Shown here: piece by piece, positions 3,428-25,674 of the stretch
Position numbering within the stretch: the first letter of the stretch is position 1
Layout: every line of letters begins with the position of its first letter
Origin: Clostridia bacterium
Lineage (GTDB): Bacteria; Bacillota; Clostridia; Christensenellales; Aristaeellaceae
Assembly (NCBI GenBank): GCA_017547285.1
Contig: JAFYQB010000055.1
Location: 1 to 64,000, forward strand
DNA: 64,000 bases
Reading direction: 5' to 3'
The notes under the pieces: generated by a model
Told to the model about the DNA's origin: nothing
Database searches by the model: none
Seen by the model: the letters and a program-made list of their open reading frames with translations, nothing else
Made by a program: the position numbers and the translations under genes

Positions 3428-5548
3428 ATGACAGAGCTGCATATCCGCAGGCGGGTTTTTACGCTGCTGATGCTGCTGGTGTTTCTGTTTGTCCTGCTGT
3501 TTTTAAGAATTACCTATCTGACCACCACGCTTTCGGCGGAACTGACTGCCCGCGGCGTGAAACAATGGACGCGCGAAGGTACGGTTTATGCCCGGAGAGG
3601 CAGTATCCTGGACGCGAACGGTCAGACGCTGGTCATGAGCGCGACCGCTTACATCGTAAATGCAGATCCACGAAAGATATCGGACATGTCTTTGTTCACA
3701 CAAACGATATGTCCGATTTTGGATTTGGATGAGGAAAGTACGTCCCAAAAACTGTCGGATAAAAGAAAGGCTTCGGTAACCCTGAAACGGCAGGTGCCGC
3801 GCGAAACGGCCGATGAGCTGAGAAAGCTTCAGTCATCCGGCAGCGAGGCCGTTCAAAAAGAACTGAAAGCGCTGCTGTTTGACGAAGATGTGCGCCGTGT
3901 TTACCTGAAAAATGCGTTTCTGGTGCAAACCCTGGGACTGACGAATGTGGACGGCATAGGACAGTCAGGTCTGGAAGCGCAGTATGAAACGCTGTTAAAA
4001 GGTGCGGCAGGAAGGACACTGCGCAGCGTGGACGGAAGATCACAAACGATCTACGACAGACAGAATCTTTATATAGAACCTCAGAACGGAAATGACCTGA
4101 AGCTGACGATCGACACCAATATACAGGCAGTATGTGAAAAGGCCATGCGCGAGTGCTATGAGGTAAACAAGGCGCAGGCGGTGCATGTCATCGCAATGGA
4201 TCCCTATACGGGCGCTATTCTGGCCATGTGCTCAAAGCCCGATTATGATCCAAACAATCCGCCGCGCGCGCAGGTGGACGCGCTGAATCAGATGATGCGC
4301 ATCCGTCTGATCACAGACGCATATGAGCCCGGTTCCACCTTCAAGATTCTCACCGCTGCAGCAGCCCTGGATGCGGGCGTAACCACGCCGGAAGATTCCT
4401 TTTACTGTTCGGCCAAAATCACCGTGGACGGGGATACCATACGCTGCTGGGGACGGCCGCATGAGGCGGAAACCATGGCGCAGGCATTGCAGAACAGCTG
4501 CAATCCCGTTTTTGTAGAACTGGCGCTGCGGCTTGGAACAGAGCGTTTTTATCAGTATCTGCGTGCGTTCGGGCTTGGAGCGCGAACCGGCGTGGATCTG
4601 CAGGGAGAAGCGGCAGGCATACTGATACCTGAAAGGAATGTCAAAAATGTGGATCTGGCCCGGATCGGCTTTGGCCAGAGCATTGCGGTAACGCCGATTC
4701 AGCTGCTCTCGGCAGCATGCTCGGTGATCAACGGCGGAAGACTGATGCAGCCCTACCTGCTGAAGGAAGCTGTTTCGCCGGACGGAACGGTCATTTACCG
4801 TTCTCAGCCCAAAGTGCTCAGCCATCCCGTTTCCGAAGAAACCAGCACGCTCATGCGCAGCCTGCTGGAACAGGTGGTCAGCATTGGCGGCGCCAAAAAT
4901 GCAGCGGTTCCCGGCTATCTGGTGGGCGGCAAAACAGGAACGGCGCAGGTGTACAAGGAAGGAAAGATTGTGCGGGATGTGCATATCGGTTCCTTTCTGG
5001 GGTTTGCTCCGGCAAATGATCCGCGCATTGCGCTGCTGGTGATCGTGGATGAGGCAGACACGCCTGTTGACTATGGCGGCACAACTGCTGCGCCTTTTGC
5101 TGGACAAATCCTCTCAGATGTGTTACCTTATTTAGGTTGTAAGACTGTTTCGGATGCGGAACGGATGGAAAGGGAAGTTCCTGATCTGACAGGTCTTTCT
5201 CTGGCACAGGCCAGACAGCTGGCATCAGAGGCGGGTTTTCGTGTACTGGATGACGGAAGCGGTGCAGTTGTTACTGCGCAAATGCCGGGTGCGGGCGCAA
5301 AGCTGATAGCCGGCGGCCAGATGATGCTTTATACCTATACAGACAATCCCCCTCAGCCAGAGCAGGTGGTTTGCGTTCCGGACGTGCTGGGCCGATCTCT
5401 TGCACAGGCGGCTACACTGCTCAGGCAGCGCGGACTGGAAATGCAGATCGAGGGATCCGGTTATGCTGTGCGGCAGGAACCGGCAGCAGGATCCTATGCC
5501 GCACAGGGGTCGATTGTCAGGGTGAATTTTGAAATGCCCAATCCATAA
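3428..5548 (+). CDS. spoVD: Class B penicillin-binding protein with two PASTA domains (FtsI/SpoVD type)
   Basis: This 706-residue transpeptidase crosslinks septal or spore-cortex peptidoglycan. It has an N-terminal anchor (about residues 10-32) and a dimerisation domain. The transpeptidase motifs are STFK (Ser303 as nucleophile), SCN in QNSCNP and KTGTAQ. Two C-terminal PASTA domains begin VPDLTG and VPDVLG. The ATG at 3428 is chosen because GGGGAAGG lies 8 bases upstream; a GTG at 3425 is in frame. PASTA domains are typical of SpoVD and of some Gram-positive division PBPs. Bacillus carries pbpB and spoVD side by side here, but this cluster has a single gene, so it may serve vegetative division, sporulation or both. 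It lies directly before murE. Confidence 0.93.
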   Translation: MTELHIRRRVFTLLMLLVFLFVLLFLRITYLTTTLSAELTARGVKQWTREGTVYARRGSILDANGQTLVMSATAYIVNADPRKISDMSLFTQTICPILDLDEESTSQKLSDKRKASVTLKRQVPRETADELRKLQSSGSEAVQKELKALLFDEDVRRVYLKNAFLVQTLGLTNVDGIGQSGLEAQYETLLKGAAGRTLRSVDGRSQTIYDRQNLYIEPQNGNDLKLTIDTNIQAVCEKAMRECYEVNKAQAVHVIAMDPYTGAILAMCSKPDYDPNNPPRAQVDALNQMMRIRLITDAYEPGSTFKILTAAAALDAGVTTPEDSFYCSAKITVDGDTIRCWGRPHEAETMAQALQNSCNPVFVELALRLGTERFYQYLRAFGLGARTGVDLQGEAAGILIPERNVKNVDLARIGFGQSIAVTPIQLLSAACSVINGGRLMQPYLLKEAVSPDGTVIYRSQPKVLSHPVSEETSTLMRSLLEQVVSIGGAKNAAVPGYLVGGKTGTAQVYKEGKIVRDVHIGSFLGFAPANDPRIALLVIVDEADTPVDYGGTTAAPFAGQILSDVLPYLGCKTVSDAERMEREVPDLTGLSLAQARQLASEAGFRVLDDGSGAVVTAQMPGAGAKLIAGGQMMLYTYTDNPPQPEQVVCVPDVLGRSLAQAATLLRQRGLEMQIEGSGYAVRQEPAAGSYAAQGSIVRVNFEMPNP

Positions 5549-9432: not shown

Positions 9433-9439
9433 CCCATAG

Positions 9440-9510
9440 AAAACCCTTCCCTGCGTGGAGGCGATGCATACAGAAGATAAAGCATCTGTTTCCATCGAAG
9501 GGAGGGTTTT
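9440..9510 (+). promoter_or_regulatory. Terminator-like hairpin that sequesters the ftsW ribosome binding site
   Basis: AAAACCCTTCCCT (9440-9452) pairs with AGGGAGGGTTTT (9499-9510), giving 12 pairs with one bulge. An inner stem GATGC/GCATC (9463-9467, 9482-9486) shortens the loop. The 3' arm contains GGAGGG, the binding site for the TTG at 9512, and is followed by a T run. The 5' arm begins 8 bases after the murD stop, within the footprint of a terminating ribosome. Confidence 0.6.
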
Positions 9511-9511
9511 T

Positions 9512-10651
9512 TTGAACCAGCCGAAACCGCTGTTTGCGGATCGATATCTGAAAAAACATCGTACAGGCGTGGATCATACGCTGCTTGCGGTGCTGGCACT
9601 GCTGCTGATGGGCGGCTTGCTTACACTGTTCAGCGCTACGTATTACAAGGCTGTCCAGAGCGGTGATGCGCTGCTGGAAGTGAAACGGCAGCTGGTTGGC
9701 ATCGCTCTGGGAGCGGTGCTTATGCTGGTTACCAGCCGCATTCCCTACGCATTCTGGCGTGATCCGCGCGTGGTGGTTGGGGCGCTGGCGGCCAGCTATG
9801 TACTGCTGATTCTGGTTATTATTCCGGGGATCGGCGTGTTCTTGAACGGATCAAGAAGGTGGCTGAATATTGCAGGCATGAGTTTTCAGCCATCTGAAGT
9901 GGCAAAGATCGCTTCTGTGCTGTATCTGGCTTCCACACTCAGCTTCCGTCTGGGTCAGGTGGAACATTTCTGGAAAGGGATTGTGCCGCTGCTGATCGTG
10001 CCTGGCCTCATGTTTCTGCTGATCCTGGAACAACCGAATCTGTCCACAGCGGGCAGCATTGTGATCGTAGCGGTTCTGATGATGCTGCTGGCAGGGGCGA
10101 AATGGGGGCATCTGACCTTCATGGGAGTCGCCGGTTTCTGCCTGGGAGCGGTCTATGCGTGGACGGAACCCTACCGACGCGAGCGTCTGCTTTCTTTCCG
10201 GGATCCTTTTGCGCAGATGAGCGATGAAGGATATCAGCTTTCACAGTCACTGATTGCCATCGGCTCGGGCGGCCTGTTCGGGCGTGGACTGGGGCAGGGC
10301 AGGCAGAAGTTCAGCTTTCTGCCATATCCGGAAAGTGACTTCATCTTTGCCATCGTAGGCGAGGATTTCGGCTTGTTCGGCTGTGTGATTGTGATCCTGC
10401 TGTTTGTGGCCTTTGCATTCGCAGGCATGCGCATCGCTGTCAGCTGTCCGGACCGTTACGGCTGCCTGCTGGCGGCGGGATTGACGGCCATGATCAGCGT
10501 GCAGGCGGTGCTCAACATCGCCGTGGTGATCGGCGTAATGCCCACAACAGGTCTGCCGTTGCCGTTTTTCAGCGCAGGCGGTACGTCCATTTCTCTTTTG
10601 ATGGCTTCCACCGGTATCATTCTCAGTGTATCCCGTTCGTCGCAAAGATGA
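9512..10651 (+). CDS. ftsW: FtsW, SEDS-family septal peptidoglycan glycosyltransferase
   Basis: FtsW polymerises lipid II at the septum with its partner class B PBP. From the TTG at 9512 the product has 379 residues and about ten transmembrane segments. Typical SEDS segments are NGSRRWL, FQPSEVAK, EDFGLFG and PFFSAGGTS. The TTG start is preferred because GGAGGG (9501-9506) lies 5 bases upstream. An in-frame ATG at 9464 has GGAGG only about 2 bases away, and a GTG at 9455 is also in frame. Either would add 16 or more residues (MHTEDKASV), which do not look conserved. No murG follows, unlike most clusters, and murA comes next. Confidence 0.93.
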   Translation: MNQPKPLFADRYLKKHRTGVDHTLLAVLALLLMGGLLTLFSATYYKAVQSGDALLEVKRQLVGIALGAVLMLVTSRIPYAFWRDPRVVVGALAASYVLLILVIIPGIGVFLNGSRRWLNIAGMSFQPSEVAKIASVLYLASTLSFRLGQVEHFWKGIVPLLIVPGLMFLLILEQPNLSTAGSIVIVAVLMMLLAGAKWGHLTFMGVAGFCLGAVYAWTEPYRRERLLSFRDPFAQMSDEGYQLSQSLIAIGSGGLFGRGLGQGRQKFSFLPYPESDFIFAIVGEDFGLFGCVIVILLFVAFAFAGMRIAVSCPDRYGCLLAAGLTAMISVQAVLNIAVVIGVMPTTGLPLPFFSAGGTSISLLMASTGIILSVSRSSQR

Positions 10652-10719
10652 GCTTTTCTTTCACACAATGTCGGGCATGACATAGGATGCTGCATGGAAT
10701 GCTTGACGGAGGTGGAATG

Positions 10720-11982
10720 ATGAGCGTCCTGCGAATTTGCGGAGGCAGACGTTTGGAAGGAGAATGGACGGTTCACAGCGCGAAAAACGCTGTTTTGCCC
10801 ATTATGGCCGCGTCTATTCTGACGGACGAAAAAACGGTATTGACAGACTGCCCTCTTTTAAGCGATATTGGATATATGGGCGATATTCTGGAAACGCTGG
10901 GTTGCCGGGTGGAACGGCGGGCAGGCAGTATACATATTGATCCGCAGGGGTTGTGCAGTTGGGAAATGCCTGATGCGCTTTCCAAAAAAATTCGTTCATC
11001 CATTTTTCTGATGGGGCCCATTCTGGCTCGTTTTGGCAAAGCAGCGGTTACTTTCCCGGGCGGCTGCGAAATCGGGCTCAGACCCATCGATCTGCATCTG
11101 AGCGGACTGCGGCAATTAGGGGTTGACATTCGTGAAGAGGGCGGGATGATCTACTGCGACGGCAGCTGCATGAAGGCCGGAACGGTTCATTTTGATTATC
11201 CCAGCGTCGGCGCAACGGAAAACGTGATGATGGCGGCTGTGCTTTTACCGGGAAGGACCGTGCTGCACAATGTGGCCCGCGAGCCGGAAATTGTGGATTT
11301 GCAGCAGTTCCTTCGAAAAATGGGCGCGGACGTAAACGGTGCAGGCACCCACACCATTGTGGTAGAGGGCGTTCACAAGCTGCATGGCGTTGACTATCAG
11401 CCCATGGCTGACCGTATTGTGGCAGGCACACTGCTGGCAGCTGCGGCTGCAACAGGAGGCAGCATCCGCCTGTACAGAACTCCGTGTGCGGAATTGTGCG
11501 CTGTGTTTGCCAAACTGCGGGAAATGGGCTGTGCGATCTGTGAACAGGATCAGACTGCTGTTTTGCAGGCCCCGTCCCGCCTGAATGCGTTTGCACTGCT
11601 GCAAACGCAGCCTCATCCTGGATTCCCTACGGATATGCAGGTGCAAATGCTTGCTTTGGCGGCAATGGCAAAGGAAACTTCTGTGGTTGTGGAGAATGTA
11701 TTTGAGAACCGGTTTACCCACGCGGGGGATCTGAACCGCATGGGCGCGGATATCTGGGTGAACGGGCGCACTGCTGTGGTCAAGGGCACGGAAAGGCTTT
11801 TTGGCACAAAGGTGGCCGCGCGCGATCTGCGCGGCGGAGCGGCGCTGGCGATTGCAGCGCTGGCAGCAGAAGGCGAAACCACGATCGAACGTGCCGAACT
11901 GATCGACAGGGGATATGAACGGCTGGAGGAAATGCTGAGCGCTTTGGGCGCACAGGCCAGCCGCATGGATACAGGCGTATAA
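10720..11982 (+). CDS. murA: MurA, UDP-GlcNAc 1-carboxyvinyltransferase
   Basis: This is the first committed step of peptidoglycan synthesis, adding enolpyruvyl from PEP to UDP-GlcNAc. From the ATG at 10720 the product has 420 residues, exactly the family length. The substrate-binding SAKNA places Lys22 and Asn23 at the usual positions. The active loop FPGGCEIGLRP carries Cys116, the residue alkylated by fosfomycin, so the enzyme should be sensitive. The C-terminal DRGYERLEE is also typical. An adjacent ATG at 10717 is only 3 bases from the GGAGGTGG site, so 10720 is preferred. Its place after ftsW, where murG is usual, is the common Clostridia variant with murA in the cluster. Confidence 0.95.
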   Translation: MSVLRICGGRRLEGEWTVHSAKNAVLPIMAASILTDEKTVLTDCPLLSDIGYMGDILETLGCRVERRAGSIHIDPQGLCSWEMPDALSKKIRSSIFLMGPILARFGKAAVTFPGGCEIGLRPIDLHLSGLRQLGVDIREEGGMIYCDGSCMKAGTVHFDYPSVGATENVMMAAVLLPGRTVLHNVAREPEIVDLQQFLRKMGADVNGAGTHTIVVEGVHKLHGVDYQPMADRIVAGTLLAAAAATGGSIRLYRTPCAELCAVFAKLREMGCAICEQDQTAVLQAPSRLNAFALLQTQPHPGFPTDMQVQMLALAAMAKETSVVVENVFENRFTHAGDLNRMGADIWVNGRTAVVKGTERLFGTKVAARDLRGGAALAIAALAAEGETTIERAELIDRGYERLEEMLSALGAQASRMDTGV

Positions 11983-16774: not shown

Positions 16775-17785
16775 ATGGCCAAAGAGCATTCAGGGGCATT
16801 CGCCTGTACAGGAGCGGTGATTGGAGCAGGATTTGCTTCCGGACGCGAAATCGTTGCTTTTTTTGCACGTTATCAGCAGCACGGAAGCTGGCTTGTGATT
16901 CTTGCTGCGCTGACGATGACGGGGCTTTGTCTGCTTTGCATGAAGACGGCGTGCAAAAACGGCTGTGACTGGGTGAATACGCTGTGCGGCAGCCGTCTGG
17001 CTGCGGTCTGTCCGCTGCTGCTGATGACGCTTACTGCGGGGGCGATGATCTCTGCTTCCGGCCATATCACCGCACTTGTATGGAGACATTCCCAGGCATA
17101 TGTTCTGGGAATGCTGGGAACACTGCTGTTTGCAGGAGTGATTGGAAACCGGAGCCTGAAAGCGCATGGCGCTGTCAGTGCATTGCTTGCCATTGGCCTG
17201 TTGTGCGCGCTGCTGGCTGCATTGACTAAACTTCCCCTGAAAGCGGTCCAAACAGAAACAGTCTTTGGTTTCAAAACGCTTGTCATTGCAGGCATACGTG
17301 CGGCAGGCTATGCAGCCATGAATGTGGTGCTGGCGATCGGTGTGATTTATCGTACCGCCGTCAGTTGCCGAAAGATTCGTCGGACGGCTATGCTGTTTGG
17401 CCTGATGACCGGCATGCTTATGATGCTCAGTTATCAGGTGTATCTCCGTTTTCCGGCATCAAAGCAAATGGCCTTCCCCATGATCGGACTGCTGAATGGT
17501 TATGGGAAGATTGGTTATCTTTCAGGCGCTGCTTTGCTGTATCTGTCGGTTGTCACTACGCTGGCATCTGTGCTGTATGCGCTTCGGAATGCCGCGGAAA
17601 ACCGGATTTCCCGTCGCGAATGGCGCTGGCTGGTTGTTTATGGCATACCGCTGTGGGTGGCAGGGATCGGATTTGAGGGAATCGTAGACCGGCTGTATGC
17701 GCCTGCAGGGCTGATCTGCCTGATGATTGTTTTTCTGCCCATGATGAAAGCGCTGCGAAACAAAAGCAAGGCAAGTTTTTCTTGA
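16775..17785 (+). CDS. YkvI-like polytopic membrane protein (putative transporter)
   Basis: This 336-residue protein is mostly hydrophobic, with about nine to ten membrane segments. It opens with GAVIGAGFASGREIVAFF, a glycine-rich unwound first helix typical of LeuT-fold transporters and of the YkvI family (COG3949). The ligand is unknown. The ATG at 16775 is 7 bases after GGGGAGG; an ATG at 16770 is in another frame. The stop codon overlaps the -35 box of the next promoter. The gene is otherwise alone, divergent from the exonuclease gene. Confidence 0.75.
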   Translation: MAKEHSGAFACTGAVIGAGFASGREIVAFFARYQQHGSWLVILAALTMTGLCLLCMKTACKNGCDWVNTLCGSRLAAVCPLLLMTLTAGAMISASGHITALVWRHSQAYVLGMLGTLLFAGVIGNRSLKAHGAVSALLAIGLLCALLAALTKLPLKAVQTETVFGFKTLVIAGIRAAGYAAMNVVLAIGVIYRTAVSCRKIRRTAMLFGLMTGMLMMLSYQVYLRFPASKQMAFPMIGLLNGYGKIGYLSGAALLYLSVVTTLASVLYALRNAAENRISRREWRWLVVYGIPLWVAGIGFEGIVDRLYAPAGLICLMIVFLPMMKALRNKSKASFS

Positions 17786-17835
17786 CAATTCCGATTGAAT
17801 ACAGTACGATGAATTCAGTTGTACAAACGATTGCA
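17782..17835 (+). promoter_or_regulatory. Promoter and LacI-family operator upstream of maltose phosphorylase
   Basis: TTGACA (17782-17787), a 17-base spacer and TACGAT (17805-17810) make a strong promoter. At 17822-17835 the sequence TACAAACGATTGCA matches the LacI/MalR half-site consensus TGCAAACGTTTGCA at 12 of 14 positions. Its place just after the -10 box is suited to repression. Catabolite control by CcpA or a MalR-like regulator is likely, but no regulator gene lies in this window. Confidence 0.7.
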
Positions 17836-17857
17836 CATCCTAAAGGAGCAGATTCAT

Positions 17858-20116
17858 ATGCATTTTATCATTCATCCCTGGAAAGTAGCCGAAACCGGCC
17901 TGGACAAGGAACACATCCGCCTGTCTGAAAGCCTGACCTCCACCGGCAATGGCTATATGGGCATGCGCGGCAATTTTGAGGAAGACTACTCAGGCAATAC
18001 GCATTTGGGCACCTATATCGGCGGCGTTTGGTTTCCGGATAAAACCCGCGTTGGCTGGTGGAAGAACGGTTATCCGCAGTATTTTGGCAAGGCCATCAAC
18101 TGTGTGCGCATGAACGGCATTCATGTGCAGGTGGACGGCGCGGATCTGGATCTGAATAAGGCGGACGTGGTGGAATTCTACCGCGAACTGGATATGCAGA
18201 GCGGCCTGTTCCTGCGTACCTTTACCGTTAAAACCGAAAAAGGTCTTCTGAAGGTACGGGCGGAGCGTTTTGTATCGCTGGATCAGAAGGAGCTGCTGGC
18301 AATCCGTTACAGCATAACGGCGGATTATGCCGCGCATATCGAAATGCGCCCCTATCTGGATGGCAATGTTCGCAACCTGGACAGCAACTATGATGAAACC
18401 TTCTGGGATATGCTGGCCGAGGAAGAAAGCGTGGACGGCGCTGCCATTCTGACCAAGACCAGGAAAAACCCGTTCGGCACGCCGCGCTTTGCCGTGGCTG
18501 CCGCCATGAGCTGCTGGTCGGATGAAATGGAAATGCAGAGCCGCAAGCTGGAGAGCGGCTATGCGGAAATGCTGTATTCCGTGGATGCTGAGGCCAATGA
18601 GCGCATCACCCTTGAAAAGTATGTGCTGTGTTTTACCAGCCGCGATTATGAACAGAAAGTGCTGACCACCATGGCACTCCGTGCGGCTTCCCGAGCCCGC
18701 GAGGTGGGGTATGAAGAACTGCGCACCGCTCATGCCAACGCGTGGAAGGCGCGCTGGGCAGGCTGCGATGTGACCATCGAAGGCGACGATGCGGCGCAGC
18801 AGGGCATTCGTTTCAACCTGTTCCAGCTTCTGAGCACCTACTCCGGCGATGACCCGCGCCTGAATATTGGCCCCAAGGGCTTTACCGGCGAAAAGTACGG
18901 CGGCGCAACCTACTGGGATACCGAGGCGTACTGCCTGTCCGTGTACATGGCGATCGCCGGACAGGATGTGGCCAAACAGCTGCTTCTTTACCGCTGGATG
19001 CAGCTGGACGGCGCATATGAAAATGCCCGTCAGCAGGGTCTGCAGGGTGCGCTGTATCCCATGGTGACCTTTACAGGTATTGAATGTCACAACGAATGGG
19101 AAATCACCTTTGAGGAAATTCACCGAAACGGTGCGATCGCCCACGCCATTTTCAACTACGCTACTTACACAGGCGACTATGGCTATATGCTCAGGGAAGG
19201 CCTGGATGTGCTGTGCGGCATTGCACGCTTCTACACCGACCGCGTGCATTTCTCCAAACGCAAGCAGAAATATATGATCCACGGCGTGACCGGCCCCAAC
19301 GAGTATGAAAACAACGTAAGCAACAACTGGTACACCAACCGTATTGCTGCATGGAGCATCGGTCTGTTTGTGACGCAGGTACACCGCGCCAGCAAGGAAC
19401 GTCTGGAGCAGCTGAATATTACGCCTGAAGAGATCGCCCACATGCTGGATGTGGTGGAGCGCATGTACTATCCCGAAGATGAAGATCTGGGCATTTTTGT
19501 GCAGCATGATACCTTCATGGATAAGGATCTGATGCGTGCCAGCGATATTCCTGCCGATCAGCGCCCCATCAACCAGCACTGGTCCTGGGACCATATTCTG
19601 CGCAGCTGCTTCATCAAGCAGGCTGACGTTCTGCAGGGCCTGTATTTCCTCAATCATCTGTACGATGAAGAGACGATCCGCCGCAATTTTGATTTCTACG
19701 AGCCCATGACGGTGCATGAGAGCAGCCTGTCTCCCTGTGTTCACAGCATTCTGGCGGCGCAGCTGGGTTACCATGACAAGGCGGTGGAAATGTATCAGCG
19801 TACCGCACGTCTTGACCTGGATAATATTAATAACGACACGGAAGATGGTCTGCATATCACCAGTATGGCCGGCAGCTGGCTCTCTATGGCGCATGGCTTT
19901 GCAGGTATGCGCACCACCGATGGCCTTGCGCTGAATCCCTTCCTGCCTGACGCCTGGAAAGGCTATGCCTTCCAGTTCCACTACCGCAATCGCGTGATCC
20001 GCGTAAGCGTCAAGCCCGGCGAAGCCTGCGTGGAGCTGCTGGAAGGCGCGCCGCTCACACTCAGCCTCTGCGGCGAGGAAGTGCGTCTGGAAGACCGCAT
20101 CGTACACGCCATCTAA
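17858..20116 (+). CDS. mapA: Maltose phosphorylase (glycoside hydrolase family 65)
   Basis: The enzyme splits maltose with phosphate into glucose and beta-glucose 1-phosphate in the cytoplasm. The 752 residues match the family length, and the sequence follows bacterial maltose phosphorylases closely. Diagnostic segments are GYMGMRGNFEE, GVWFPDKTRVGWW, NIGPKGFTGEKYGG, TYWDTEAY, GIECHNEWEITFEEIHRN and TGPNEYENNVSNNWYTN, where Glu482 is the general acid. Kojibiose and trehalose phosphorylases belong to the same family but differ around these loops. The ATG at 17858 has AAAGGAG upstream. No beta-phosphoglucomutase or maltose transporter is nearby, so the product must be used by enzymes encoded elsewhere. 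Confidence 0.92.
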   Translation: MHFIIHPWKVAETGLDKEHIRLSESLTSTGNGYMGMRGNFEEDYSGNTHLGTYIGGVWFPDKTRVGWWKNGYPQYFGKAINCVRMNGIHVQVDGADLDLNKADVVEFYRELDMQSGLFLRTFTVKTEKGLLKVRAERFVSLDQKELLAIRYSITADYAAHIEMRPYLDGNVRNLDSNYDETFWDMLAEEESVDGAAILTKTRKNPFGTPRFAVAAAMSCWSDEMEMQSRKLESGYAEMLYSVDAEANERITLEKYVLCFTSRDYEQKVLTTMALRAASRAREVGYEELRTAHANAWKARWAGCDVTIEGDDAAQQGIRFNLFQLLSTYSGDDPRLNIGPKGFTGEKYGGATYWDTEAYCLSVYMAIAGQDVAKQLLLYRWMQLDGAYENARQQGLQGALYPMVTFTGIECHNEWEITFEEIHRNGAIAHAIFNYATYTGDYGYMLREGLDVLCGIARFYTDRVHFSKRKQKYMIHGVTGPNEYENNVSNNWYTNRIAAWSIGLFVTQVHRASKERLEQLNITPEEIAHMLDVVERMYYPEDEDLGIFVQHDTFMDKDLMRASDIPADQRPINQHWSWDHILRSCFIKQADVLQGLYFLNHLYDEETIRRNFDFYEPMTVHESSLSPCVHSILAAQLGYHDKAVEMYQRTARLDLDNINNDTEDGLHITSMAGSWLSMAHGFAGMRTTDGLALNPFLPDAWKGYAFQFHYRNRVIRVSVKPGEACVELLEGAPLTLSLCGEEVRLEDRIVHAI

Positions 20117-20122
20117 AACCTC

Positions 20123-20150
20123 ACAATCCGATTGCCTCCCGCATAGAATG
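20123..20150 (+). promoter_or_regulatory. Candidate sigma-K promoter for dpaA
   Basis: AC (20123-20124), 17 bases, then CATAGAATG (20142-20150) fits the sigma-K consensus AC-N16/17-CATANNNTA except for the last base. B. subtilis spoVFA is sigma-K dependent in the mother cell. Transcription would start near 20156, inside the loop of the hairpin at 20131-20180. The match is short and unproven. Confidence 0.45.
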
Positions 20151-20183
20151 CAATATCTTGCATCGGCGGGAGGCGATTTTGTT
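20131..20183 (+). terminator. Hairpin after mapA, overlapping the dpaA ribosome binding site
   Basis: ATTGCCTCCCGC (20131-20142) pairs with GCGGGAGGCGAT (20166-20177) with one G-T wobble, and ATGCAA/TTGCAT (20148-20153, 20158-20163) forms an inner stem. A TTTTGTTT tract follows. It should end mapA transcripts. The 3' arm contains GGGAGG, the binding site for dpaA, so transcripts reading through from mapA would also hide that site. Confidence 0.7.
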
Positions 20184-20184
20184 T

Positions 20185-21006
20185 ATGAAAAAAATGCTGC
20201 TGGTTGGCGGAGACCGGCGCATGGCCTGTCTTGCAGACCTGTTGGAACATCAGGGCTTTCAGGTGGAAACAATGGGACTTCGTTCCGGGGAGATCGTACA
20301 TAGTGATTGGGCGGATGCAGTGCTGTTTGCCTATCCGTTTTCTGTGCGAAACGGAGTAATACCGACCCTGACCGGGGAAAAGCTGCATCCGGAAACAATA
20401 TTGGAAAAAATCAGGGAAAACACGCTGCTGATCACGGGGAAGGGAATGGAAGGATATATCCGGCAGGAAACGCCGAGATTAAAACGTTATACAGATGCTG
20501 CTGTGCTGGAAAAACGAAATGCAGAGCTTTCTGCGGAGGCGGCTGTATGCGAAAGCATGCTGCACAGCCGGCTGGCGCTGATGGATTCCAATGTGCTGGT
20601 TACAGGCTATGGTTTGTTCGGACGTGCGCTTGCACTGCGGCTGAAAACGCTGAATGCAAAGGTATGGATCGCGGCAAGACGCGAACAGCAGCGCCGGCAG
20701 GCGGAGGCGGATGGCATGCAGACGGTATCGATTCTTGAAATGGCGGATGTACTGCCTGAAATGAATCTGATTCTGAATACCGTTCCTGCCCGCATTTTTG
20801 CGGAATTCCATTTCAAACAGATACCCAACGACTGCTGGCTGCTGGAACTGGCCAGTGCGCCATACGGCTTTGATGCAGAAAGCGCAAGGACGATGGGCAT
20901 AGCCTGTGCACAGCTGCCGGGGCTTCCGGCACGGTATTCGCCCGAGAGCGCGGCTATGGCGCTTATGGAAGCGGTCATGGAACTGACAGGGGAGGCTGCG
21001 TTGTGA
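20185..21006 (+). CDS. dpaA: Dipicolinate synthase subunit A (SpoVFA)
   Basis: Together with DpaB this enzyme makes pyridine-2,6-dicarboxylate from dihydrodipicolinate in the mother cell for the spore core. From the ATG at 20185 it has 273 residues. It has an N-terminal segment (KKMLLVGGDRRMACLADLL), an NAD(P)-binding Rossmann fold (LVTGYGLFGRALALRLK, about 138-154) and a substrate domain with LELASAPYGFD. A TTG at 20179, 5 bases after GGGAGG, is an alternative start adding two residues. B. subtilis SpoVFA is 297 residues. The stop overlaps the dpaB start, so the two are coupled. The presence of the pair is strong evidence that this organism forms endospores. Confidence 0.92.
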   Translation: MKKMLLVGGDRRMACLADLLEHQGFQVETMGLRSGEIVHSDWADAVLFAYPFSVRNGVIPTLTGEKLHPETILEKIRENTLLITGKGMEGYIRQETPRLKRYTDAAVLEKRNAELSAEAAVCESMLHSRLALMDSNVLVTGYGLFGRALALRLKTLNAKVWIAARREQQRRQAEADGMQTVSILEMADVLPEMNLILNTVPARIFAEFHFKQIPNDCWLLELASAPYGFDAESARTMGIACAQLPGLPARYSPESAAMALMEAVMELTGEAAL

Positions 21007-21593
21007 AAAAACTGACCATCGGTTTTGCATTAACAGGTTCTTTTTGCACCTTTGAACGTGCAATTGGCCAGATGGAGGAACTGGTACGGCGCGGATACGA
21101 AGTACTGCCGGTTCTTTCCTTTCATGCCGGCGAGCTGGATACAAGGTTCATGACCGCACATGAGGTACGGGAACGTGTGCAGCACATCACCGGTCACGAA
21201 CCAATCGATACATTGACCGCGGCCGAACCCATCGGCCCCAAGCGCATGTGCGATGTATATGTGGTCGCGCCGATCACAGGCAACAGCCTGTCCAAACTGG
21301 CGAATGGTCAGTTTGATACGCCTGCCATGCTGGGGGCCAAGAGCCATTTGCGAAACGAAAAGCCGCTGGTGCTGGCTGTATCCACCAATGACGGACTGGG
21401 CGCGGCAGCGCAGAACATCGGCAGGCTTTTGCAGTGGCGAAACGTTTACTTTGTGCCCTTCGGTCAGGATGACCCGATTAAGAAACCGCGTTCGCTGGTA
21501 GCGGATTTTGAACAAATCCCGCGAACCATTGCCGCTGCGCTGGCTGGTATTCAGCTTCAGCCCATGCTGATACCGTCCAAATTGATGAATTAA
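21003..21593 (+). CDS. dpaB: Dipicolinate synthase subunit B (SpoVFB)
   Basis: The protein has 196 residues and a flavoprotein-like fold (TIGFALTGSFCTF at the start, VVAPITGNSLSKLANG in the middle, LAVSTNDGLGAAAQNIGRL later). This is the pattern of DpaB, the partner of DpaA in dipicolinate formation. The GTG at 21003 overlaps the dpaA stop by 4 bases (GTGA). Expression therefore probably depends on the same mother-cell promoter as dpaA. The following gap carries a new promoter for the next gene. Confidence 0.93.
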   Translation: MKKLTIGFALTGSFCTFERAIGQMEELVRRGYEVLPVLSFHAGELDTRFMTAHEVRERVQHITGHEPIDTLTAAEPIGPKRMCDVYVVAPITGNSLSKLANGQFDTPAMLGAKSHLRNEKPLVLAVSTNDGLGAAAQNIGRLLQWRNVYFVPFGQDDPIKKPRSLVADFEQIPRTIAAALAGIQLQPMLIPSKLMN

Positions 21594-21623
21594 TGCCGGA
21601 TAAGCAAAAATACTGTAACAAAC

Positions 21624-21652
21624 TTGCAACAAAACCGTTTTTGCGGTAAAAT
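21624..21652 (+). promoter_or_regulatory. Sigma-A-type promoter for the RsiV-like gene
   Basis: TTGCAA (21624-21629), a 17-base spacer and TAAAAT (21647-21652) lie 38 bases before the ATG at 21691. Confidence 0.65.
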
Positions 21653-21690
21653 AAAAGATGCTCTTATCTGCCAAAGAGGGAGGAAAGAAA

Positions 21691-22806
21691 ATGCTGAAAA
21701 GATGGATGATGCTGCTCCTGGCAGCGCTTATGTGTGTTTTTTCGCAGGCGTTTGCTCAGGAAATCATTATAGAAGATGTGCAGACCCGAATGGGGGAGAA
21801 CGCGGTCGTTTATCCCCAATTAAACGGTATGACGGATCAGAACATCCAGCAGAAGATCAATGATGATATCGTGACTGAATCCGGCGTAACCAACCACATG
21901 GTTTCGCTCTTTACGCTTACAGGACAGCAGACGCTGAATGTGACATACGACGCTTACCTGAACGAGAACGTTTTTTCCGTCGTGATCAGCGCAAAGGGAA
22001 AGCTGCCGAAGGTACGCGACGGTCACAGCTACACCGCGCTGACCTATGACCTGGAAACGGGGGAGAGGCTCAGGCTAGATCAGATCTTCAGTGATGTGGA
22101 TGCTGCCGTGGCTCTGATGGAAACAAAAGCAATCGAAACCCTTTCTGAGGAGCTGAACGGCTACCTGGAATACAGCGAACTTACCCCGCTGCCTGTGGAT
22201 TCTTTTACAGTGAATGAAGACGGCATTACTTTCTGGTATCCGGCGGAGCAGTTTTCGCTTGTCAGCGGCTGGAGCGGCGCGTGCCAGTTCTGGTATGAAG
22301 AACTGGAAGGGCTGCTGATCGATGACCGGCAGCCCCTGACCGCGGCGGAACAGAAGGAAGCGATTGAACAAAGCGTTTCATCCGGTATGCTGCCTCATGT
22401 GCCTGTTCGGATGGGGCAGAACATGCAGGAGATCACAGATGCCTACCGCCTCCTGCGCACGCCGGATGCGTTCCCGGGCGGCAGGTATTTCCTGATGGAG
22501 GATCCTGCCTTCCGCAGCGTGCTGGTGATTTCGGATTCGCTGCAGGCGGATTATGCCAATTCTGTGGTCGAAGGCATTCAGCTTCGCCGGGGCGGCCTGC
22601 AGGGCCTGATGATCGGCCGTACTGCTCAGCCGGAATGGCGCGCAATACTGGGCGAACCGGCGGAAAGCCTGGTCATGACCGAAAACATGGCCTTTGATTA
22701 CGGCCTTTGCGAAGGTACTTTTGATCGGTATCATTACGGAGAATACGAGCTGAGACTGTATGCGGATGCCGAAGGCATTCTGTATGCAATTCAGCTTTGC
22801 AAATAA
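21691..22806 (+). CDS. Exported protein with RsiV-like (DUF3298/DUF4163) domain
   Basis: The protein has 371 residues with a signal peptide (MLKRWMMLLLAALMCVFSQAFAQ, cut after AFA near residue 22). The first half looks like the DUF4163/DUF3298 pair found outside the membrane in the anti-sigma factor RsiV and in many exported Firmicute proteins (NAVVYPQLNGMTDQNIQQKIN, SYTALTYDLETGERLRLDQIF, DGITFWYPAEQ). The C-terminal half, from about 225, is not recognised. There is no membrane anchor other than the signal, so it is probably secreted or cell-wall retained. GGGAGGA precedes the ATG at 21691. The function is unknown. The ftsK gene follows after 21 bases. Confidence 0.75.
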   Translation: MLKRWMMLLLAALMCVFSQAFAQEIIIEDVQTRMGENAVVYPQLNGMTDQNIQQKINDDIVTESGVTNHMVSLFTLTGQQTLNVTYDAYLNENVFSVVISAKGKLPKVRDGHSYTALTYDLETGERLRLDQIFSDVDAAVALMETKAIETLSEELNGYLEYSELTPLPVDSFTVNEDGITFWYPAEQFSLVSGWSGACQFWYEELEGLLIDDRQPLTAAEQKEAIEQSVSSGMLPHVPVRMGQNMQEITDAYRLLRTPDAFPGGRYFLMEDPAFRSVLVISDSLQADYANSVVEGIQLRRGGLQGLMIGRTAQPEWRAILGEPAESLVMTENMAFDYGLCEGTFDRYHYGEYELRLYADAEGILYAIQLCK

Positions 22807-22827
22807 CAAACGGAGGAATGTACCATT

Positions 22828-25674
22828 ATGGCCAAACGCAGCAACAACAAAAAAGCTGCACAATTCCATTCCAATACGCTGGCGGCCTTTGTGACCGTCG
22901 GCATTCTTCTGATTGCGCTGGGTGTAGTCAGCCTGCTTTCTGTTGTGGGCGGATTGAGAGGTTCGGTGTTTGACTGGGTTAAGCGCGTGATGCAGGGCCT
23001 TGGTGGAGGCCTGTGCGTGGGCGTGAGCGTGCTGTTACTCTGGCTGGGCGTGCTGGTGGCTTTTTCAGCCGGCCGTCTCATGCCCAAACGCGGCTTCATC
23101 CTGTTAACGGTCCTGTTTGCGGCTGTATTGGGCATTATCAACCTGCTCAGCAAAATCGGCACTTACAGCCTGATGGATTACCTGGTCGGCCAGAATAAAA
23201 ATGCCGTGCCGCCGATGGCTGCTCCGGAGGGTTTTGGAAGCATGATCAAAGCGGCCTTTGGCGTTTGTGCAGCCAGCGGAGCGTTCGGCGGCGTGATTGG
23301 TATGCTGCTGGCCTGGCCCGCGTGGACCTTTCTTGGCGGTACGCTGGGAACGGTTGCGCTTGGTCTGATTTGCGCGGTCTGTCTGCTGCTGGTTTCAAGA
23401 TTTGATCTGATGCAGATGGTAGACACGGTTCGCGGCGGAATAAAAGCGCGCAGTGAAAAAAAACAGCAGCAGCTCGCTCAGGAGGCATATCAGCAGCAAC
23501 TGGCGCTGCAGAGGCAGCAGGCGGAGGAAGCAGAGCGTATGCGTCAGAACGCCGCTTATATGCGACAGAATCAGCCTGTTTATCAGCAGCAGTCGTATGC
23601 GCCTTATACCGGCATGGTGAACCAGCCTGTCCAGCAGCCTCAGGGCGAGATTTACGATGAGATCATTATTCCTCAGGGCAAGCAGCCTCTGTGGCGTACC
23701 AAAAAAGCCAAAAAGGAGCAGCCGCAGCCTCAGGAGACGGAAGGCAGCTATCAGACGCGCATGACGTTCACGCCCAGCGAAATGGGTGTGGAACAGCCGG
23801 AAACCAGGCTGGATGATACACTGGTACTTTCTTCCACCAAAAGGAAGACGCTGGAGCGCATTGAAAACATCCGCAAACGCAAAGCGGAACTGGCGGTGGA
23901 TATCCAGGGTGATGAACAGGCCAGAGAAAATGTGGTTCCGGCTGCCATGACGTTTGCGCCTGCCGTACAGGCACAGCCTGTGTTTGTGGAGCCGGAAGCA
24001 GAGGAAGAGCCTGAAATGGAAGTGGAACTGCCGCCTATCGTCCAGCCTGAAAAAGAAAGGCAGGACGCCTACAAACGTCCTGTTAAAATGGCGCCGCCTC
24101 CTTCGTTTATGCCTTTGGACGGCCCGGTTACCCCGGATGGCAATCCCGAATCTGCCGGCAATCCCGCCCAGATCTATTCGCATAAAAAAGAGGACAAGCC
24201 CCAGTATGCAGTGGAAAAACTGCCGTATGCCTATCCGTCGATCGACCTGCTCAACCAGCAGCAGCGCCGTGAAAATGTGGATACCCGTACTGCTGATACC
24301 GAAGGCGCTTCCCGTCTGGAGAAAACACTGGAAAGTTTCGGCATTCCTGCTCGTGTACAGCGCGTGACGCATGGCCCGGCTGTGACCCGTTTTGAACTGG
24401 GACTTGTTTCCAGCGGCATTAACGTCAAACGAATCATGGGCATTGCTGATAACATCGCGCTGGATATGGCAGCCAACGGCGGCGTACGCATTGAGATCCC
24501 TATTCCGGGCACCAATCTTTTTGGCGTAGAGGTGCCCAATAAGGAAATTCAGAGCGTTACGCTGGCCGAAGTGCTGATGAGCAATGAAATGCGTTCCGCC
24601 AAATCGCCGCTGGCTGTTGCGCTGGGACGGGATATCGCCGGCAAACCGGTGATATGCGATATTGCCAAAATGCCTCACCTGCTGATTGCCGGTCAAACCG
24701 GCAGCGGTAAGTCCGTTTGCATCAACGCCATTATCAACAGTCTCCTCTTCCGTTCCTCTCCCGAGGAAGTGCGAATGATCATGATCGACCCCAAGGTGGT
24801 CGAATTGCAATGCTACAACGTGGTGCCGCATCTGCTGATTCCCGTGGTAAGCGATCCTCACAAGGCTGCGGGCGCATTGCAGTGGGCGGTTGCGGAAATG
24901 CTGGACCGCTATCACAAAATGCAAAGCAAGAATGTGCGTGAAATTTCCGCCTACAACGCCAAGCTTGGCCCCGATGAAGAAAAACTGCCGCGTATCGTGA
25001 TCATCATTGACGAGCTGGCTGACCTGATGCTGGCCTGTAAAAAAGAAGTTGAGGAAAGCATCATCCGCATCGCGCAGCTGGCCCGTGCGGCTGGTATCCA
25101 CATGATCGTTGCCACGCAGCGTCCCACGGTGGACGTTATCACAGGTCTGATCAAGGCCAACATTCCCTCCCGCATTGCGTTTGCGGTTTCTTCCAGCCTG
25201 GACAGCCGCACAATCCTTGACCAGAACGGCGCAGAAAAACTGTTGGGCAAGGGCGACATGTTCTTCTTCCCGACCGGAGCCAGCTCTCCCATTCGTGTGC
25301 AGGGCTGCTTCCTGAGCGACGCAGAAACCGAACGGGTGATGGATTATATCGGTTCTCATTCCCGTGTGGATTTCGATCCCAGTGTGATCGAAGCCATGGA
25401 GGCGGATGATGAAAGCTCTGCCGCGATCGCTGATACGGATGACAGCGAAGGTCTGGACGACCGTCTGGCCGAGGCCATTGAAATGGTGATTACAGACGGA
25501 CAGGCTTCCATCAGTATGCTGCAGAGGCGTATGAAGATCGGCTATGCACGCGCCGGAAGGCTGATTGACGATATGGCTGCGCGTGGTATCGTAAGCAAAT
25601 CCGCAGGCAGCAAGCCGCGTGAGGTGCTCATCAGCCGCGAAGAGTATGAACGGATCAAAGATACATTGCTGTAA
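22828..25674 (+). CDS. ftsK: FtsK/SpoIIIE DNA translocase
   Basis: This 948-residue motor pumps DNA through the septum during division or into the forespore. It has four or more N-terminal membrane segments (within residues 10-195) and a long linker rich in Gln and charged residues (about 205-450). The RecA-like motor domain follows, with the P-loop GQTGSGKS near 622-629 and the Walker B segment [10 protein letters not shown] near 722-731. The C-terminal winged-helix gamma domain ([20 protein letters not shown]) reads DNA polarity sequences. B. subtilis SpoIIIE is 787 residues; the difference is the linker. Only one copy is seen here, so whether it serves division, sporulation or both cannot be told. 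Confidence 0.94.

Follow-up and report, generated by a model that had tools for sequence, protein, structure and literature searches.

The 68-bp gap between the mapA stop and the dpaA ATG in our window (the whole 64-kb stretch of DNA analysed here) probably holds one fused element, in which the terminator of mapA, a sigma-K promoter for dpaA and the ribosome site of dpaA are merged. Dipicolinic acid is a spore-specific chemical, and the dipicolinate pathway branches off the synthesis of lysine and cell-wall precursors. In the mechanism that we propose, a hairpin followed by a T tract would end mapA-derived RNA as an intrinsic terminator. The stem of this hairpin would also pair with the dpaA Shine-Dalgarno sequence (SD), resulting in poor translation of dpaA from any RNA that reads through from mapA. 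Late in sporulation, mother-cell sigma-K would initiate transcription at TCACA-N15-GCATAGAATG, the spacer and -10 element of which are the 5' arm of the hairpin. Because the predicted start falls in the apical loop, the sigma-K RNA would lack the 5' arm of the outer stem, which could then not form, and the SD would be open to the ribosome. Together with dpaB behind it, dpaA would be off at two levels in growing cells, since the same hairpin would both terminate mapA RNA and hide the SD, and it would be expressed solely through its own sigma-K promoter. The proposed benefit is that lysine and diaminopimelate precursors would not be drained into dipicolinate during growth. The coordinates of the features are collected in Table 1.

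Table 1. Positions of the genes and signals around the mapA-dpaA gap of the window, and of the g16 histidine-kinase-like leaders (locus coordinates).
Feature	Position	Strand	Basis or remark
mapA, glycoside hydrolase family 65 (GH65) phosphorylase	17819..20116	+	NCBIfam NF010380, 1156 bits
mapA stop TAA	20114-20116	+	sequence
sigma-K -35 element TCACA (consensus KCACM)	20121..20125	+	AC at 20123-20124
hairpin 5' arm	20131..20142	+	inside promoter; untranscribed from predicted sigma-K start
sigma-K -10 element GCATAGAATG	20141..20150	+	consensus GCATANNNTA, differs at last base
CATAGAATG, N17 downstream of AC	20142-20150	+	sequence
hairpin inner helix and apical loop	20146..20164	+	ATA of -10 within internal loop
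predicted sigma-K transcription start, apical loop	20155..20158	+	promoter geometry, C of CATA at -15
hairpin 3' arm	20166..20177	+	folding, genus alignment
dpaA SD GGGAGG, within hairpin 3' arm	20168..20173	+	sequence, folding
T tract TTTTGTTT, immediately 3' of stem	20177..20184	+	intrinsic-terminator signature for mapA
dpaA, dipicolinate synthase subunit A	20185..21006	+	NF006162 E 2.2e-39; TIGR02853 E 3.3e-29
dpaB, dipicolinate synthase subunit B	21003..21593	+	NF006161, 265 bits, above cut-off
g16 histidine-kinase-like leaders	L160 865-936; L153 833-904; L177 624-696; L151	minus (L151)	

The profile scores of DpaA lie under the curated cut-offs, yet these profiles are its best match, and a DpaB that scores above its cut-off is encoded directly downstream, overlapping dpaA in the same orientation. 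Translation of dpaA may start at the ATG at 20185 or at an in-frame TTG at 20179; many of the relatives have a TTG within the T tract or downstream of it. Our comparison set consists of 17 genomes of the genus and our family set of 308 genomes, mostly metagenome-assembled and from uncultured organisms. The mapA gene adjoins dpaA upstream in all 17 genus genomes. MapA is 77-92% identical in 16 relatives (C-terminal 465-477 aa compared), and the DpaA proteins of the genus are 38-51% identical to that of the window.

The original prediction had described a 12-bp hairpin that carries GGGAGG in the 3' arm and is followed by a T tract, and this structure is found at the predicted place. In the computed fold, positions 20131-20142 pair with 20166-20177 to form an outer stem of 12 bp with the inner helix above it, and the region folds at -50.1 kcal/mol compared with -38.1 ± 3.5 for shuffled sequences, none of which folded as well (0/200). 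Of the ORF starts in the window, 59 have an SD, and none of these is buried as deeply as that of dpaA, which costs 19.9 kcal/mol to open against a median of 3.8. The hairpin also has the composition of an intrinsic terminator, a G+C-rich 12-bp stem followed directly by the T tract, in 17/17 genomes; this tract is interrupted in some members (G000 TTTTGTTT, G002 TTTTGGTT, G004 TTTTCATTTT). We infer that it terminates mapA transcription efficiently and that the RNA reading through it is translationally silent. A simple terminator scan missed the mapA-dpaA hairpin because its loop limit was 8. An Rfam search of positions 17000-23500 matched no family up to E = 1, and the exact-arm pattern of the hairpin has one site in its own genome.

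In all 17 genus genomes, both arms are retained before dpaA, the SD lies in the 3' arm and a T tract follows. Neither a hairpin arm nor the CATA element has been lost in any of them, an outcome on which the original prediction depended. In the genus alignment, 99.5% of the outer-stem cells are paired, compared with 43-66% in slid controls, and the outer stem contains 16 double-change cells against 4.9 in shuffles, more than in every single shuffle. Stem covariation reaches 0.348 versus 0.199 in shuffles, with 0/500 as high. On a tree built from MapA and DpaA, three covarying pairs have changed state a minimum of 5, 3 and 4 times; the number of independent contrasts is below what significance would require. 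The inner helix is kept as well: judged by eye, the GATG of the -10 element lies opposite a downstream CATC or CATT in nearly all members. A covariance model run against the 308 family genomes scored the 17 dpaA loci at E <= 4e-16, and no other match fell below 1.7e-9; since these 17 loci trained the model, the informative part of the search is that no other strong matches were found. At the level of sequence, the promoter motif, the hairpin, the SD in its 3' arm and the T tract are jointly conserved and covary in the genus.

The promoter itself, TCACA-N15-GCATAGAATG (20121-20150), fits the sigma-K consensus of KCACM at -35 and GCATANNNTA at -10 (PMC3416734, Table 4) with a spacing of 15 ± 1 bp between the two blocks (PMC517825); the final two bases of its -10 element are TG, against TA in the B. 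subtilis consensus. The interval originally given (20123-20187) placed the element correctly and began two bases inside the fuller -35 match. By itself such a match is near chance, with 0.42 + 0.48 (about 0.9) expected in a 64-kb window, and the promoter is convincing because it is conserved among the relatives. AC-N16/17-GCATAnnATG stands before dpaA in each of the 17 genus genomes, and it is this conservation, not the lone match, that supports the sigma-K fit proposed earlier for the AC-N17 element in the hairpin. Across the family, AC and CATAnnnT are found in 70 of the 81 dpaA leaders in which the start and CATA could be placed, positioned about 50 bases upstream of the protein's first conserved motif. 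In the dpaA leaders of g72 (L135, L136, L142, L154, L121 and others) we observed CATAnnnTC, often without AC at the usual distance, and the mother-cell promoter before dpaA may differ there.

Genus-wide, the pattern CACM-N14-16-GCATANNATR has 117 matches in the 17 genomes compared with 12 for a reversed control pattern. These matches precede aspartate-semialdehyde dehydrogenase, aspartokinase, murA, Cys-rich and collagen-like coat candidates and other genes, all named from their N-terminal sequences. Aspartate-semialdehyde dehydrogenase and aspartokinase belong to the same pathway as dipicolinate. Judging from the genes behind it, the sigma-K motif marks late mother-cell genes throughout the genus. 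Sigma-K is also encoded: a protein of G000:C122 has TIGR02846 as its best family at 271 bits, below the curated cut-off of 298.65, and scores above the cut-off for NF004471 (SigK). A SigE gene is present as well. A sigma-70-like match at 20120-20149 (9 of 12) is no better than those in shuffles and was set aside.

We then compared RNA arriving from upstream with sigma-K RNA, the start of which was set 13 or 15 bases 3' of the C of CATA. Averaged over the 17 genomes, opening the SD costs 17.9 kcal/mol in the RNA from upstream versus 3.6 in the sigma-K RNA, as computed for free RNA at 37 °C without ribosomes or co-transcriptional folding. This modelled drop, from about 18 to about 4 kcal/mol, agrees with the earlier proposal that a sigma-K transcript without the 5' arm would expose the SD. 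When promoter segments from other genera were swapped in, masking was gone; a leader's own segment beats 98-100% of the swaps in 17/17 genomes, and therefore the 5' arm is fitted to its own SD and is not just C-rich. The dpaA leader consequently combines the two marks of a masking leader, an SD sequestered in the long RNA and an internal promoter that, by its geometry only, starts inside the hairpin. Masking would be physically expected to act as a second lock on dpaA. The original prediction went too far in restricting dpaA translation to sporulation "by promoter choice alone", because termination and masking arise from the same hairpin and are inseparable by sequence.

The structure could alternatively be the terminator of mapA, squeezed with the promoter and the SD into the 68-bp gap, in which case burial of the SD would be a by-product without regulatory effect, there being hardly any read-through RNA left after termination. 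We regard this explanation as quite possible, if short of probable, and several observations outside the mapA-dpaA gap speak for it. Most other genera of the family have a free dpaA SD, and since they do without masking it appears dispensable for dpaA control. The genera that have no terminator at the dpaA gap mostly belong to this free class. Strong masking with preference for the own segment occurs outside the genus in g12 (two genomes), g58 and g65, each time followed by a T tract (short in g58, T3), and g17 and g6 provide single, weaker cases. Masking is also not general for sigma-K genes: among the genes surveyed it is strong only at dpaA and at the murA of G016 and G014. Apart from these two genomes, the conserved murA sigma-K promoter of the genus is mostly unmasked, and the asd SD is unmasked in the genus. 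In the dpaA leader of L235, from distant Clostridia, the sigma-K -10 element TCATAAAATG lies inside a perfect terminator palindrome and the SD outside it, by its layout a promoter within a terminator without masking. The choice of SD was automatic in the swaps of family leaders, in the survey of other sigma-K genes and in the L235 analysis; a high masking value at L348 was discounted for a doubtful ORF call. Against burial as a pure by-product, any G+C-rich 3' arm would terminate, yet the arm is the SD itself in 17/17 genomes. Furthermore, the SD pairs with the promoter segment without a T tract in G134, in some g16 leaders and at the murA of G016, all weak or single cases, and masking must physically act on whatever read-through exists.

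The opposite emphasis, a hairpin that mainly controls translation and terminates poorly, as at T4 gene e, seems unlikely. The interrupted T tracts of G000, G002 and G004 would agree with it, but in each of the 17 genomes a long, G+C-rich stem is immediately followed by T, and there is no evident reason for co-transcribing mapA and dpaA. We consider recognition of the promoter by sigma-E, either alone or together with sigma-K, very unlikely. This question arises because the -10 sequences of the two factors are alike, KCATANANTN for sigma-E overlapping GCATANNNTA for sigma-K, and genes for both factors are present; however, the -35 AC is at the sigma-K distance genus-wide, TYATATTT is not seen, and dpaA of C. 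difficile is sigma-K-dependent. The coincidence of a functionless hairpin with a chance promoter match, for which the expectation of about 0.9 motifs per window could be cited, counts as refuted by conservation in 17/17 genomes and by covariation despite the low identity of the DpaA proteins. For the preferred reading, a fused terminator, promoter and ribosome site, the simplest history is that the mapA terminator merged with the dpaA promoter and SD and that masking came along, because the masked leaders outside the genus carry T tracts, murA and asd are mostly unmasked and the SD of L235 is free. Termination may even be the selected trait and masking its by-product, since nearly all strongly masked cases outside the genus have a T tract.

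The masking logic is already known from T4 gene e and B. subtilis sigG; as far as we found, a masking hairpin that doubles as a terminator is new. By the account in the excerpts of PMC5942855 (Masuda 1988; Sun 1991), translation of the RNA that reads into B. subtilis sigG (spoIIIG) from PspoIIG is proposed to be blocked by a hairpin of 20+ bp, which cannot form in RNA from sigG's own sporulation promoter. The dpaA gene resembles sigG in logic: both are sporulation genes located behind another gene, hidden in the read-through RNA and free in the RNA from their own promoter. Conversely, sigG is a forespore gene of sigma-F/sigma-G whereas dpaA is a mother-cell sigma-K gene, and the same excerpts do not describe the sigG hairpin as the terminator of the upstream gene. 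In phage T4, the ribosome sites of gene e (lysozyme), soc, 49 and I-TevI are concealed by folding of the long early RNAs, and late promoters within the DNA encoding the 5' strand produce well-translated RNAs, with an effect of about 100-fold for gene e (excerpts of PMC3014915). Gene e thus shares with dpaA a masked long RNA and a translatable short RNA from a promoter inside the hairpin; unlike dpaA, it relies on phage late promoters and not on a sporulation sigma factor, and a terminator role is not described in those excerpts. The dpaAB operon of C. difficile is sigma-K-dependent with a mapped promoter (excerpts of PMC3789822). Compared by description only, it is the same operon under the same sigma factor, whereas neither a masking hairpin nor a terminator overlap is mentioned in these excerpts. 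Our literature search of open-licence papers found nothing direct on a promoter inside a terminator of this kind.

Terminators with an internal mother-cell promoter and the next gene's SD in the 3' arm might recur at several sporulation genes of this Clostridia family, a tentative generalization that we consider rather doubtful. The candidates at dpaA are those of the genus, g12, g58 and g65. In g16, a histidine-kinase-like gene between ruvA and dpaA is preceded by a hairpin with the SD GGAAGGTG in its 3' arm, followed by T4 and the ATG, and the 5' half of this leader contains a sigma-E-like TCATATTG...GCATATAAAG. Hairpins that resemble terminators and contain the next gene's SD were also seen in other genera (L092, L093, L089, L095), where the next genes are asparagine synthase, D-Ala-D-Ala carboxypeptidase and an ORF of 63 aa whose hairpin includes a sigma-K match. 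Among the candidates for recurrence, asparagine synthase belongs to g4, the D-Ala-D-Ala carboxypeptidase to g63 and a small ORF with GCACA..GGCATAGGATG to G314.

The window contains a second large hairpin at 9433-9514, between murD and an ftsW/spoVE-like gene, with the sequence CCCTTCCC...GGGAGGG and T7. The SD of the next gene (about 9500-9506) lies in its 3' arm, with a TTG start at 9512, and its opening cost of 18 kcal/mol is the second highest in the window. Nearly all genus genomes keep this hairpin, with an inner GATGC/GCATC helix, an ACnAAAG loop and a T tract that is sometimes absent. It matched no Rfam family above threshold and a model of it matches essentially only the genus, making it a candidate new structured leader.

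At 10663-10726, in a division and cell-wall gene cluster, a conserved sigma-K-type promoter (AC-N16-CATAnnATG) lies directly 5' of the genus murA, which points to a supply of MurA specific to sporulation; in the G016 promoter, the spacer pairs with the SD of murA. For the conserved GCATAGGATG before murA, a coding role was rejected, since both the pattern across the genus and the leaders of murA identify it as a conserved sigma-K-type promoter. At asd, named by its N-terminal sequence (L289 / G000:C4, about 5085-5112, minus strand), we observed apparent tandem promoters, TTGACA...TATCAT and then a sigma-K match CACA-N14-GCATAGGATA, with the SD unmasked.

If the fused element operates as proposed, a compact genome would obtain a stop signal, a developmental promoter and a ribosome site from one short stretch of DNA, and a spore-only pathway would be locked twice without any regulator. 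Leakage of dpaA would plausibly be costly because of the point at which its pathway branches off lysine and cell-wall precursor synthesis. The arrangement would carry the logic known from T4 and from B. subtilis sigG over to a metabolic gene of the mother cell, and it would provide a sequence rule, complementarity between promoter spacer and SD, by which further cases could be sought in uncultured spore formers.
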